From positions 1 through 64,000 of the forward strand of contig JAKPPT010000138.1 of the NCBI GenBank assembly GCA_029547205.1: a stretch of 64,000 nucleotides of DNA. The letters run 5' to 3'. A program made the position numbers and the translations under genes. Below the pieces are notes generated by a model, which saw nothing but the letters and a program-made list of their open reading frames with translations, was not told the origin of the DNA and searched no databases. Below, in pieces: positions 56,488 through 63,407 of this stretch; within the stretch, counting starts at the first letter, position 1, and the number at the start of each line of letters is the position of its first letter. This DNA is from Spirochaetota bacterium (GTDB lineage Bacteria; Spirochaetota; Spirochaetia; Treponematales; UBA12059).

Positions 56488-57207
56488 ATGGAGTTAGTTT
56501 TTGATAAAGTTACATACACATATCCACATAGAAAACAGAGTGCAGTAAACAATATTTCTTTCACATGTCCAGGCGGATCGATCTGTGCACTTATTGGACC
56601 CAATGGCGGTGGAAAGTCTACCGTGTTACAGCTTGCCTGTGGAATACTAAAACCCGATACAGGAAAACTTTTATGCAGTGAAAAACCTGCTTATTTACCT
56701 CAGCAAGAACGAATTGCCTATTCCTTTAGTGTGTTGGAGTATGTGTTGTTTGGCCGGGCGCCTTCATTAAAGCTGTTTGAAACACCAGCTCCATCCGATG
56801 AAGCGCGAGCAGTGCAATGTCTCAATGAACTTGGTATTGAGCATCTGAGCTACAAGAGAATAACAGAACTATCTGGCGGAGAATTGCAGCTCGTAAGAAT
56901 TGCGAGGGTCTTAGTACAGGACAGCAGCATTTTACTGCTAGATGAACCTACCGATATGCTCGATCCAGCACATATTGCAACGTTGATAACGATGTTAAAA
57001 AGAGAGAAGCAGCAAGGGTCAATAGTACTTATGGCTACTCATGATTTATTTATAGTTCAGGACTATGCTGATTATATTATAGGAATAAAGAGTGGCATCC
57101 AGTTTTTATGTAATGCAAAAGCTCAATGTTTTACAGCCAGTAATCTTGAAATGCTTTTTGATGTTTCTATGATGCCACGAGAAATATTCATACCTACTAT
57201 ACCATAA
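56488..57207 (+). CDS. ABC transporter ATPase of the FecE/BtuD type
   Basis: Energises the BtuC-type permease upstream. Walker A GPNGGGKST (~37-45), Q-loop YLPQQERIA, signature LSGGELQLVRIARVL, Walker B ILLLDEPTDMLD and switch His in MATHDL. 239 residues is typical. Last gene of the mocA-binding protein-permease-ATPase unit. Confidence 0.9.
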   Translation: MELVFDKVTYTYPHRKQSAVNNISFTCPGGSICALIGPNGGGKSTVLQLACGILKPDTGKLLCSEKPAYLPQQERIAYSFSVLEYVLFGRAPSLKLFETPAPSDEARAVQCLNELGIEHLSYKRITELSGGELQLVRIARVLVQDSSILLLDEPTDMLDPAHIATLITMLKREKQQGSIVLMATHDLFIVQDYADYIIGIKSGIQFLCNAKAQCFTASNLEMLFDVSMMPREIFIPTIP

Positions 57208-57253: not shown

Positions 57254-58279
57254 TTATTGATTAGCTAGTAAAGTGATAAAATCATCGAAGGGCATGGGTT
57301 TATAAAAGCAGAAACCCTGGATGTAGTCGCAGTTGATAGAGTATAAAAAAACAGCCTGTCCGGTTTGTTCTACGCCTTCAGCAACAACAGACATGCCAAG
57401 ATCGTGAGCAAGACTGGTAATTGATTTGCACATATGCTGTGATTTTTTATTGTCTGGTAAATGGATAACGAATGAGCGATCAATTTTAAGAATATCAGCG
57501 GGCATTTCTAGTAAACGCGAAAGAGATGATAATCCTGTTCCAAAATCATCAATAGAGACTTTTATACCTGCAGTGCGAACCTGTTTGATAAAGGTTTCAA
57601 CTTCGCTTGAGTTCCAAGAGTCCATAATAGTAGATTCTGTGATTTCTAGTTCAAGCTGTTCAGGGTTAACACTATATTTAGTAATTTTATCATGAATTGA
57701 GTTAAACAATTTTGTGTTGTTGAGCTGTTGCGGAGAAATGTTAAGTGCAATATTGACTGTCGGATTTTGTTGTGCAATGAGTGCTAGTTCTTTACAGCCT
57801 GTATCAAGTACTATGTCTCCAATTTCATAAATGAGTCCAGTTTTTTCAGCAATTTCAATAAAAGTTCCCGGATAGTACAATTTATCTTCATATATCCAGC
57901 GTACGAGACATTCAGCACTTTTTACAGTGCCATGACGGTCTACTTTTGGCTGATAATGGAGCACAAATCGGTTAGATGAAGATTTACCAGACAGTGTTTT
58001 TTTAAGCTGAGCAGTTATTATTTCGGTTGCACGTTTTCGTTCTGCAAGTTGTTCATTGTATATAACGACCTGAGGTGCATTAGTTTTTTTTGCTTCAACG
58101 AGTGATTCATCAGCGCTTTTCATGAGTTCAGATACAGTTTTTCCATGATCAGGGAAAATACTTATACCCATGCGGTATTTTAGCAAAAGGAGATGGTTTT
58201 CGTATTTCCATACATTATCAATGTTGTGGATTAGATTTTTTACCACTTTTGATTCTAGAGTATGTTTTCCATCTGTCAA
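57254..58279 (-). CDS. GGDEF-EAL protein, C-terminal part (frame after the poly-A shift)
   Basis: This open frame holds the end of a GGDEF domain (RMGISIFPDHGKTVSELMKSAD) and a complete EAL cyclic-di-GMP phosphodiesterase domain. The EAL motif itself is changed to ECLVRW, but the other catalytic positions are present: NISPQQL, ELEITES, IDDFGTGLSSL, LKIDRSFV, AEGVEQ and QGF. The same frame continues upstream without stop to 58480 and encodes the rest of the GGDEF domain, including RTEGDEF. It has no start codon before TTG 58279 and no ribosome site, so it is the second half of one gene with 58467-59261, separated by one extra A in a run of ten. Confidence 0.85.
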   Translation of the reverse strand: MTDGKHTLESKVVKNLIHNIDNVWKYENHLLLLKYRMGISIFPDHGKTVSELMKSADESLVEAKKTNAPQVVIYNEQLAERKRATEIITAQLKKTLSGKSSSNRFVLHYQPKVDRHGTVKSAECLVRWIYEDKLYYPGTFIEIAEKTGLIYEIGDIVLDTGCKELALIAQQNPTVNIALNISPQQLNNTKLFNSIHDKITKYSVNPEQLELEITESTIMDSWNSSEVETFIKQVRTAGIKVSIDDFGTGLSSLSRLLEMPADILKIDRSFVIHLPDNKKSQHMCKSITSLAHDLGMSVVAEGVEQTGQAVFLYSINCDYIQGFCFYKPMPFDDFITLLANQ

Positions 58280-58466
58280 AATTAAAAACTCATCGCCTTC
58301 TGTCCGGCAGATTAAATCCTGGGGTGAAAGAAATCGTTTTATTTGCTTTGCTATATGCGCAAGGCATACGTTACCAGCGTTATATCCATAGTAATCGTTA
58401 AGCTGTTTGAAGTTATTGATATCAAATAAAATGAGTGTAAAAGGTGTTTTAGAAAATGATGCAGCA

Positions 58467-59261
58467 TCAATTTTTTTTTTCTAATTGTTCCATGCCGGCT
58501 TTTCGTTTAATAGTATCAGTGAGTTCGTCATAAATCTCAAAATATTCCATGCTGCGAATTATCTGTTTGTATCTAATGGCGTTGCTGATAACACCATAGA
58601 GAGATAAGAGAGTGATAGCAAAAACGGCTCGTGGAGACTTTCCTTGTGCAAGCGGATAATCAACGCTATCTGCAATAGTAGAGAGCATGAGAATTAAATA
58701 ACAGATGACAAAAAGCCATAAAAGAATATCGGGTTTTTGGCGCTTGTCTTTTTTAAAAAGCTTAATTATGAAAAAAATTAAGGGTGTCAGTGAGAGCAAT
58801 GAATAGGTTATTGCATATGGGATATACCCTTTTGCAAGGATATAGTCGCTGCCATTAAAAGTGAACGTTCCTGAAATGTAGATAAATATAATGGGTAGAG
58901 AACAGAGAGCTATATAAATTTTAGTAAATAATTTTGGCCGGAAACCTGTAGACTGTAATATATCTAGAAATATGAGAATGAGGATAAGCGGGATCATAGT
59001 TAAAAGAATGTAATTGAGTGTAATAAATATTTCTGATGATGTTTTAAAAAATGATTTGATAGCTATGAATGCTACTACATTAAATAGTGCGCAACCTAAA
59101 ATCCACCAGCTGCGAAGTAACAGGGTTTTGCTTGATTTGCTAGTAATATTAAGTATTAATGAATAAACAGAAAGTACAAAAACTGATACAACGAGTATTT
59201 TACTGTGAAATATCTTATTCAAGCTAAAATCCAGTAAAGTATACAAAATTATACTCCTCAT
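58467..59261 (-). CDS. Membrane N-terminal part of the split GGDEF-EAL protein
   Basis: 264 residues with about seven hydrophobic helices (~15-230) and then the start of a GGDEF domain (YDELTDTIKRKAGMEQLEK). The frame closes two codons after a run of ten A. If one A is removed, the frame runs on through IDAASFSKTPFTLILFDI, the RTEGDEF motif and the EAL domain to 57254, giving one 668-residue protein. The membrane part could sense a signal for cyclic-di-GMP turnover. It is divergent from ygiQ. Confidence 0.8.
   Translation of the reverse strand: MRSIILYTLLDFSLNKIFHSKILVVSVFVLSVYSLILNITSKSSKTLLLRSWWILGCALFNVVAFIAIKSFFKTSSEIFITLNYILLTMIPLILILIFLDILQSTGFRPKLFTKIYIALCSLPIIFIYISGTFTFNGSDYILAKGYIPYAITYSLLSLTPLIFFIIKLFKKDKRQKPDILLWLFVICYLILMLSTIADSVDYPLAQGKSPRAVFAITLLSLYGVISNAIRYKQIIRSMEYFEIYDELTDTIKRKAGMEQLEKKN
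58471..58480 (-). repeat. A10 homopolymer at the gene split
   Basis: Ten T on the plus strand (ten A in the coding sense) mark exactly where the GGDEF-EAL frame is lost. A9 restores it. Confidence 0.9.
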
Positions 59262-59361: not shown

Positions 59362-61230
59362 ATGCCATTTCTTCCTACAACACAAGCTGATTTAGCTAAA
59401 GCAGCGGTACAAAGATTAGATTTTGTAATACTCTCTGGTGATGCATATGTAGATCATCCATCGTTCGGAACTGCACTCATAGCACGATTACTGGAAAGTA
59501 GAGGCTATACGATAGGAATCATTGCACGTCCGGATCCCGATGATGTTTCAGTGTTTCGTGCTCTCGGAAAACCACGTCTCGCATTTCTTATTACGAGCGG
59601 TGCAATGGATTCGATGGTATGCAAGTATACTGCTAATAAAAAATTGCGCTCGGAAGATGAATACAGTCCGGGAGGTGATCCTTCGCTCTGTCGCAGTGCC
59701 GATGGAACGCTCCACCACTATCAAAAAAATGGCAGGAAAACATCAGCACGGCCGGATCGTACGATTATTGCGTACTGTACAAAGGCTCGGGAAGCATTTA
59801 AGGGTGTACCGATCATTGCAGGCGGGATTGAAGCATCGCTCCGCCGGCTTTCGCACTATGATTACCTTTCTGATACAGTGAGGAGACCAATCGTTTTAGA
59901 TGCAAAAGCTGATTTAGTTATATATGGAATGGCAGAACGCGCAGTGTTAGAGACTGCAAGGCGATTAGCAGATAATCCACCAGAGCAGGTTGGATATGAA
60001 CAAGCGATAGTGAGTTTGCGGGGTATTCGTGGAACGGTGTGGCGTTGTTCACATGTAAACGATGTTCCCAGTACTGCAATTTGGCTTCCGTCATTTGAAG
60101 AAACAGCTCAGGATAAACAGATTTTTGCGCGTTCTTTTGCATTGCAATATCAAAATACCGACCCTGGGACAGCTCATGTTTTAGTTGAACAGGCAGGAAA
60201 TCAATTTGCTGTGCAGGAACCGCCTCAATATCCGCTAACCAGAAATGAACTTGATGCGCTATATGATTTACCATACATGCGGGCATGGCATCCCGTTTAT
60301 GATACCTATGGAGGTGTCCCTGCGTTTCATGAGGTACAGTTTTCGATAACCTCAAACCGTGGATGTTTTGGAGCATGTGCGTTTTGTTCGCTGGCGTTTC
60401 ATCAAGGAAGAATTATAACGAGTCGTTCTCATGAATCGATACTCAAAGAGGCTCGTGTATTAACCAGGCAGAAAAACTTTAAGGGTTACATTCATGATGT
60501 TGGCGGTCCCACTGCTAATTTTAGAAATCCTGCTTGTGTTAAGCAGGAAAATGGCTCTGCTTGTGTTGATAAAAGATGTCTGGTACCTGTCCCTTGCAAA
60601 TCACTCAAAACAAGTCATGAAGATTTTATACTGTTATTAAAAAAATTGAGAAGCCTTCCTGGTGTCAAAAAGGTTTTTATACGCTCTGGTATTCGGTTTG
60701 ATTATATTTTGGCAGGCAACAATGAGGAATTTTTGCAAGAGTTAGCTTTGCATCATGTTTCTGGGCAGCTTAAAGTTGCTCCAGAGCATGTATCTGATCA
60801 TGTGCTTGCATTGATGGGAAAACCGCCACACGCTGTCTATGAAAAATTTGTAGAACGATGGAAAGCAATCAATAAAACTCTGGGACTAAAACAGTTTTTA
60901 ATTCCCTATTTTATTGCATCATTGCCAGGAGCTACGCTCAAGGATGCCGTAGAGCTTGCGGAGTATCTCCGTGATTCGGGCTTTATTCCTGACCAGGTCC
61001 AGGACTTTTATCCGACTCCGGGAACACTTGCGACCGCCATGTACTATACAGGAATTGATCCTTTGACCGGCAAGCCGGTGTATACGGCAAAAGGTGCGCG
61101 AGAACGGGCTATGCAGCGTGCGCTTCTCCAATACTCTCATCCTGAAAATCGCCAGCTTGTCAAAGAAGCTCTCACGTTAGCGGGTAGGGAAGACCTCATA
61201 GGGAAAGGACCCAGGTGCCTGGTTTCATAA
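59362..61230 (+). CDS. ygiQ: YgiQ family radical SAM protein
   Basis: Large radical SAM family of unknown reaction. From ATG 59362 the protein starts MPFLPTT, as in other YgiQ proteins. GDAYVDHPSFGTALIARLLE (~30-50) is the B12-like N-terminal region, and GGIEASLRRLSHYDYLSD is diagnostic. The cluster motif SNRGCFGACAFCSLAFHQGR (~325-345) contains CxxxCxxC. The C-terminus has QDFYPTPGTLATAMYYTG. The frame is open up to 59278, but the extra residues are not family-like. No clear ribosome site precedes either start. Confidence 0.92.
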   Translation: MPFLPTTQADLAKAAVQRLDFVILSGDAYVDHPSFGTALIARLLESRGYTIGIIARPDPDDVSVFRALGKPRLAFLITSGAMDSMVCKYTANKKLRSEDEYSPGGDPSLCRSADGTLHHYQKNGRKTSARPDRTIIAYCTKAREAFKGVPIIAGGIEASLRRLSHYDYLSDTVRRPIVLDAKADLVIYGMAERAVLETARRLADNPPEQVGYEQAIVSLRGIRGTVWRCSHVNDVPSTAIWLPSFEETAQDKQIFARSFALQYQNTDPGTAHVLVEQAGNQFAVQEPPQYPLTRNELDALYDLPYMRAWHPVYDTYGGVPAFHEVQFSITSNRGCFGACAFCSLAFHQGRIITSRSHESILKEARVLTRQKNFKGYIHDVGGPTANFRNPACVKQENGSACVDKRCLVPVPCKSLKTSHEDFILLLKKLRSLPGVKKVFIRSGIRFDYILAGNNEEFLQELALHHVSGQLKVAPEHVSDHVLALMGKPPHAVYEKFVERWKAINKTLGLKQFLIPYFIASLPGATLKDAVELAEYLRDSGFIPDQVQDFYPTPGTLATAMYYTGIDPLTGKPVYTAKGARERAMQRALLQYSHPENRQLVKEALTLAGREDLIGKGPRCLVS

Positions 61231-62216: not shown

Positions 62217-63407
62217 CTATTCAATTTCCCTTTTGTGATTACGTTCGATGAGAGTTTTCAGTGTTTTCACAGGGTCCTTGCGTTTTCCGAGAAGAATCAT
62301 TGCTGCGATGATGTATGGTTTGAATCCTGCTTCACGATAGGTGTCATTGCGGTAGCGATCAAAAACGCTTGCTGCAACTTCACCTGCTTTGCAGGAAACA
62401 TCAGTAATATCTGCTGGTAGGCAGTGCATGTAGAGCGCCTTGCCACCTTTTGTAAGCTTCATTTTCTCTTCGGTGCATTCCCAGTCAATGAATTTTGCAT
62501 TGTTAGCAAGACACTGCTTTTCAAGCTCCTTAAGTCCAGCCTGGTCGCCCGCGTGGAGGAGGGGAACACGCTTCAGCATTACATCATAGGGAGCCCAGCT
62601 TTTGGGATACACGATATCAGCATCCTTAAAAGCTTCTTCCATGCTGTGACTGTGGACGAACTTGCCGCCGCTCGCTGCAGCCTGCTTTTTAGCAAGTTCG
62701 ATAACGTCTGGAATGAGGTCGTAGCCTTCCGGATGTGCGAGGTGTACTTCCATTCCAAAACGAGTTGCAAGACCGATAATGCCCTGTGGAACAGAGAGTG
62801 GTTTGCCGTAAGAGGGTGAATATGCCCACGTCATTGCTATTTTTTTCCCTTTGAGTTTATCGAGTCCACCAAAATGTTCTGCAAGGTGCAATATGTCAGC
62901 CATAGATTGTGTTGGATGATCGATATCGCTCTGTAGATTGACGATTGTTGGGCGGGATGGGAGTATTGAATCCTGTACAGCCTCATCTAATGCCTGTGCA
63001 ACTTCACGCTGATACCGGTCTCCTTCACCGAGATACATATCATCGCGTATGCCAATTGCTTCAGTAAGGAAACTAATCATTACAGCAGTTTCCCGAACCG
63101 TTTCACCGTGTGCAATCTGGCTCTTGCCTTCATCGAGATCCTGTACATAGAGACCGAGCAAATCGCAAGCACTCGAGAACGAAAATCTGGTTCGTGTAGA
63201 GTTATCCCGGAAATTAGAAACTGCAATTCCGGAATGCCAGATGCGGGGGCTTATGTTTGCTTTACGCATTTCCTGGAGAATGCGTGCAACAAGAAAAGTT
63301 GCTTCTATTTCATCGCTTGTTTTTTCCCATGTTAAGAGAAAATCCTTGTTGTACATGGCAATTTTTTTTGTTGACAACCTGTCGAGTAAATCATTAATAA
63401 CGCTCAT
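62217..63407 (-). CDS. ygeW: Knotted carbamoyltransferase YgeW
   Basis: YgeW belongs to the aspartate/ornithine transcarbamylase fold. At 396 residues it matches E. coli YgeW rather than the ~310-residue OTC and ATC enzymes. Carbamoyl-phosphate motifs are NFRDNSTRTRFSF (~64-76), HPTQSMADILHLAEHF (~170-185) and HCLPADI (~330). In E. coli and gut anaerobes ygeW sits with xdh, mocA (ygfJ), ssnA, ygeX and ygeY in anaerobic purine breakdown. Here the molybdenum hydroxylase is directly upstream (39-base gap, same strand). AGGAGG precedes the ATG. Confidence 0.9.
   Translation of the reverse strand: MSVINDLLDRLSTKKIAMYNKDFLLTWEKTSDEIEATFLVARILQEMRKANISPRIWHSGIAVSNFRDNSTRTRFSFSSACDLLGLYVQDLDEGKSQIAHGETVRETAVMISFLTEAIGIRDDMYLGEGDRYQREVAQALDEAVQDSILPSRPTIVNLQSDIDHPTQSMADILHLAEHFGGLDKLKGKKIAMTWAYSPSYGKPLSVPQGIIGLATRFGMEVHLAHPEGYDLIPDVIELAKKQAAASGGKFVHSHSMEEAFKDADIVYPKSWAPYDVMLKRVPLLHAGDQAGLKELEKQCLANNAKFIDWECTEEKMKLTKGGKALYMHCLPADITDVSCKAGEVAASVFDRYRNDTYREAGFKPYIIAAMILLGKRKDPVKTLKTLIERNHKREIE

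Follow-up and report, generated by a model that had tools for sequence, protein, structure and literature searches.

One extra A splits a gene for a membrane cyclic-di-GMP (c-di-GMP) protein in two in the draft genome (2.65 Mb, 151 contigs) of a Spirochaetota bacterium; spirochaete-type FlaA is encoded by 3 genes of this genome and by 0 in 14 control genomes, in support of a spirochaete. The gene lies in the window, that is, the whole stretch of 64,000 nucleotides that was analysed, and its features are collated in Table 1. We favour, with even confidence, the explanation that the tract, slippery for both DNA and RNA polymerase, recently gained one base by slippage, which left a leaky and revertible null. 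At present, the frameshifted allele is known from a single draft genome.

Table 1. Features of the split gene (positions in the window).
Feature	Position	Strand	Source
Upstream half: seven hydrophobic segments and first part of GGDEF (YDELTDTIKRKAGMEQLEKK)	58467–59261	−	ORF list, family and hydrophobicity search
A10 run at the break, upstream-frame reading GAA AAA AAA AAT TGA	58471–58480	−	sequence
Downstream half: 405 codons and stop; remainder of GGDEF (EGDEF) and complete EAL (ECL)	57254–58471	−	
ATGAGGAGTATAATT, containing the ribosome-binding sequence GAGGAG ahead of TTG 59246	59247–59261	−	sequence

The upstream frame comprises 264 codons and ends in ...GMEQLEKKN*, with its stop codon TGA (58467–58469) directly 3' of the A10 run, which is read as ten T on the forward strand. 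The downstream frame is one base out of register relative to the upstream frame and opens at 58471; its first ATG, GTG or TTG codon is found at 58279, past the EGDEF motif. A +1 (or −2) shift from AAA AAA fuses the halves (...LEKK|IDAASF...) to give a protein of 263+405=668 residues, or of 663 amino acids if translation starts at TTG 59246, which is the likelier start and lies shortly 3' of GAGGAG. The split gene is a single-gene transcription unit, standing alone between a convergent gene for an ABC-transporter ATPase (56488–57207) and the divergent ygiQ (59362–61230; TIGR03904, 762 bits). Elsewhere in the window, a gene for the knotted carbamoyltransferase YgeW was found on the reverse strand (62217–63407; NF005538, 680 bits).

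The original prediction held that the two frames would form one 668-residue protein if A10 were A9, that good coding sequence is kept in both halves and that decay is recent or absent; each of these statements is supported. With the downstream half alone, the Pfam GGDEF match starts at profile position 29 (97.9 bits); with the fused protein, it runs over profile positions 2–158 of 161 (109.7 bits) and the domain becomes whole. The match thus moves from position 29 to position 2 once the halves are fused, and the break therefore lies inside one domain. The fused protein also gives an EAL match of 218.7 bits, so that GGDEF and EAL are present in one polypeptide. Coding strength was 0.17 bits per codon for the upstream half and 0.28 bits per codon for the downstream half, near the values of the 53 other genes of the window (mean 0.26, sd 0.065) and far from those of off frames (−0.06 to −0.15). 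Both halves are still coding in their own frames, and a single lesion separates them. When both strands of the window were searched for A/T runs of at least nine, a single instance was obtained, exactly at the frame break.

The upstream half gave no match above the cut-off in the family search; a weak one, at 12.6 bits and below the cut-off, was to HisKA_7TM, the 7-TM region of histidine kinases. The nearest solved structures for the downstream half were 5m3c (E=5.7e-62, residues 2–399) and 4rnh (Motility regulator, MorA). ECL, LNIS, ITES, DDFGTG, LKID, AEGVE and YIQG of the EAL domain align with the corresponding residues of both structures, and the Glu, Asn, Glu, Asp-Asp, Lys, Glu and Gln residues of the metal/substrate site are all kept. 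This agrees with the earlier statement that the EAL residues are preserved outside the EAL triplet itself (ECL for EAL), and phosphodiesterase activity is likely as judged from the kept site. An active diguanylate cyclase would carry [GSA]G[DE]EF together with an intact GTP site; the protein has EGDEF, AGN in place of AGD, and SPQD in place of RxxD at the inhibitory site. Cyclase activity is unlikely with a GGDEF site so degenerate. The gene would thus probably encode a MucR-like protein with seven transmembrane segments, GGDEF and EAL that acts as a c-di-GMP phosphodiesterase, its inactive GGDEF domain serving for regulation. The best structure match, 5m3c from Pseudomonas aeruginosa, is an entry named 'Diguanylate cyclase'; the protein is MucR, the membrane domain of which is of the MHYT type. 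A multi-pass membrane N terminus, GGDEF and EAL are common to both proteins; unlike in MucR, the membrane half described here has no family match above the cut-off, the GGDEF motif reads EGDEF and the gene is broken in two.

Long A/T runs are avoided in this genome. The genes of the window (55 long ORFs) contain one A/T run of at least nine versus 6.1 expected, a depletion of about sixfold, and none of 200 synonymous shuffles was as low as observed; runs of six or seven in the same ORFs are not depleted relative to the shuffles. The pattern is the same as that described by Baranov et al. (2005), who found runs of at least nine to be avoided in the coding sequences of many bacteria and ascribed this to transcriptional and replicative slippage (PMC1088944). 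The whole genome holds 72 A/T runs of at least nine, five of which have length 10 and none of which is longer. Forty-five of the 72 are located at least 20 codons within intact frames, and two of the 72, both A10, are situated at frame breaks: that of the split gene and C130:283105–283114 (L092:3006–3015). Two other A10 runs (L061, L075) lie inside intact frames. At the second break, a frame reading MGLLEKAD...LLKRAEKK ends and a 270-codon frame (KLDAPRASQ...) continues in another register; the L092 protein has no family or relative, and its break was recognised from the reading frames alone. Scanning 389 kb of the genome for frame switches, as a check rather than a census and on DNA picked to include all runs of at least nine, yielded no other unexplained one and missed L092, the upstream piece of which is short. 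Frame switches at L042, L095, L098 and L099 were rejected, as they proved on reading to be neighbouring or overlapping genes; L074, L082 and L090 are gene starts, where an ATG lies close to the A run; L102 is situated upstream of a ParE-like gene. Tracts of other kinds were also noted. A G13 tract (L114:1501–1513; C69:120348–120360) closely follows a transposase-like remnant and precedes an HsdR-like restriction gene by approximately 190 bp; it is a candidate for promoter-type phase variation. An intergenic repeat around CCAATCCCAAATCCACCCCCC..ATATTGACACCTGGTACGCG is present in three copies with differing poly-C length (L107:1100–1790; C45, approximately 17.8–18.5 kb).

The main rival to a recent slip, which we consider possible, is that the tract is really A9 and the gene intact, A10 being an error of sequencing or assembly. 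The frameshift is a singleton in an otherwise well preserved gene, and most singleton frameshifts can be expected to be errors or newly arisen indels (PMC3711429); moreover, both unexplained breaks coincide with the longest A/T runs of the genome, which are the hardest to call correctly in a consensus. Against this stand the 45 runs in intact frames, the 389-kb scan with no other unexplained switch and the two A10 runs that leave their frames unbroken. The assembly is therefore not generally faulty at homopolymers, and a general proneness to such errors is disfavoured, although the break site itself is not thereby cleared. The sequencing error that had been named as an alternative in the original prediction is accordingly retained as a local error and disfavoured as a general fault.

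Searches for relatives were conducted with both halves. The downstream half gave no orthologue for tract comparison among 59 related genomes (best match 37% identity), and wider genome contigs returned only matches of 29–33% identity from other phyla. The membrane half was not found in the 59 related genomes or in 23 family genomes.

Evolved phase variation by slipped-strand mispairing, in which an A9/A10/A11 tract would toggle the phosphodiesterase, is unlikely in our estimation. In its favour, the A10 homopolymer is placed exactly at an intragenic break in a genome that avoids such runs, a second gene is apparently broken at an A10 run, and a c-di-GMP phosphodiesterase of Clostridioides difficile is phase-variable, though by DNA inversion (PMC9286219). 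However, the A9 form is to be expected from codon use: given the residues E-K-K-I and the codon usage of the window, the probability of GAA AAA AAA ATT is about 0.79×0.76×0.76×0.53=0.24, and the tract therefore needs no selection. Dozens of tracts in intact genes match or exceed this form in length. The tract is, furthermore, known at one length and from one assembly, in which a mixed population of A9 and A10 alleles would look identical, and no relatives carrying the gene were found. The description of the tract as the hallmark of phase variation was therefore too strong: A9 arises by codon choice in about 24% of cases, and a second length was not encountered in any allele, strain or orthologue. 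That A10 is a working contingency switch both for the phosphodiesterase and for the second gene at C130, with leaky expression at the RNA level when off, appears improbable. If switching did occur, the gene would resemble pdcB and pdcC of C. difficile in that production of a c-di-GMP phosphodiesterase is turned on and off; these are controlled by invertible DNA upstream (PMC9286219), unlike the homopolymer inside the gene in the present case. Our literature search returned no report of a homopolymer-switched EAL or GGDEF gene.

Passage through the break at the level of expression was considered as well. The frame is restored by an mRNA with one A fewer or two more, or by a ribosomal shift of +1 or −2; a −1 shift leads into the third frame, which is closed by a stop after approximately 44 codons. 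Programmed transcriptional slippage, yielding the short and the long protein at a set ratio, is very doubtful. There are precedents for it: tssM of Citrobacter rodentium is interrupted just after an A11 run and rescued by RNA polymerase slippage, with approximately 20–25% frameshifting (PMC4256274), and slippage on nine A yields both products of Thermus dnaX (PMC1088944). Programming would, however, require the break to be conserved across relatives, the polymerase would have to drop one A or add two, and the RNA polymerase of E. coli is less prone to slippage on A runs than on T runs (PMC6260861). The present gene is like tssM in having its interruption right behind a long A run; in tssM, where extra A residues bring back the frame, rescue has been measured and neither product is dispensable, whereas in the present gene it is conjectural. 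The split gene also resembles the 'pseudo-pseudogenes' that Baranov et al. (2005, PMC1088944) describe at A9/T9 runs, in that a one-base indel lengthens the A run at the break and transcriptional slippage could restore the frame, in runs of a length (at least nine) that is avoided in coding sequence; it differs in that the frame would be regained by loss of one A or gain of two.

A programmed ribosomal frameshift at the A run is scarcely credible. The heptamer A AAA AAA is of the slippery kind, but a standard −1 shift would end up in the wrong frame and +1 or −2 would be required, no Shine–Dalgarno-like stimulator was found in the 24 nt upstream of the tract, and the downstream hairpin is weak (−3.6 kcal mol−1 in 80 nt). 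A programmed −1 event is thus disfavoured by both the frame and the stimulator search. Of the transcriptional slippage and programmed frameshift suggested in the original prediction, the former stays plausible and the latter, in its usual ribosomal −1 form, is disfavoured. A putative promoter within the gene (TTGACA-16-TAGAAT, 58279–58252), from which an EAL-only product could be made, was rejected, since 8 such sites versus 9.7 expected are not above chance.

A recent slip, the explanation that we favour, would have proceeded as follows. With the codons GAA AAA AAA ATT, the beginning of the GGDEF domain would have contained an A9 run, and a replication slip from A9 to A10 would have shifted the frame in the sequenced lineage, so that the protein would be truncated after its membrane part. 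We infer that the additional base is real and that it originated by slippage; the event would be recent because there is one lesion and both halves are still coding. Since the tract is slippery, A10 would be easily reverted by replication and the null would probably be leaky: a fraction of the mRNAs would lack one A (or gain two) and still be translated into full-length protein. Leaky expression through transcriptional slippage at A10 is plausible by analogy, as RNA polymerase is well known to slip at such runs (tssM, dnaX).

The genome contains matches to 17 GGDEF, 10 HD-GYP and four PilZ domains (remnants included), and the remaining phosphodiesterases are one other EAL protein and several HD-GYP proteins. 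A GGDEF gene (C45:79270–79575, L146) and an HD-GYP gene (C63:168820–169143, L145) are decayed remnants with several stops and frameshifts; such genes therefore do get lost in this lineage, and one more fresh inactivation of a c-di-GMP gene would be unsurprising. Should the tract prove phase-variable, c-di-GMP turnover would be switched by an intragenic homopolymer, the only comparable case found in our literature search (pdcB/pdcC) using DNA inversion. If A10 is real, this is a clear example of a gene that annotation would class as a pseudogene, although it may still be expressed via transcriptional slippage and can readily revert.
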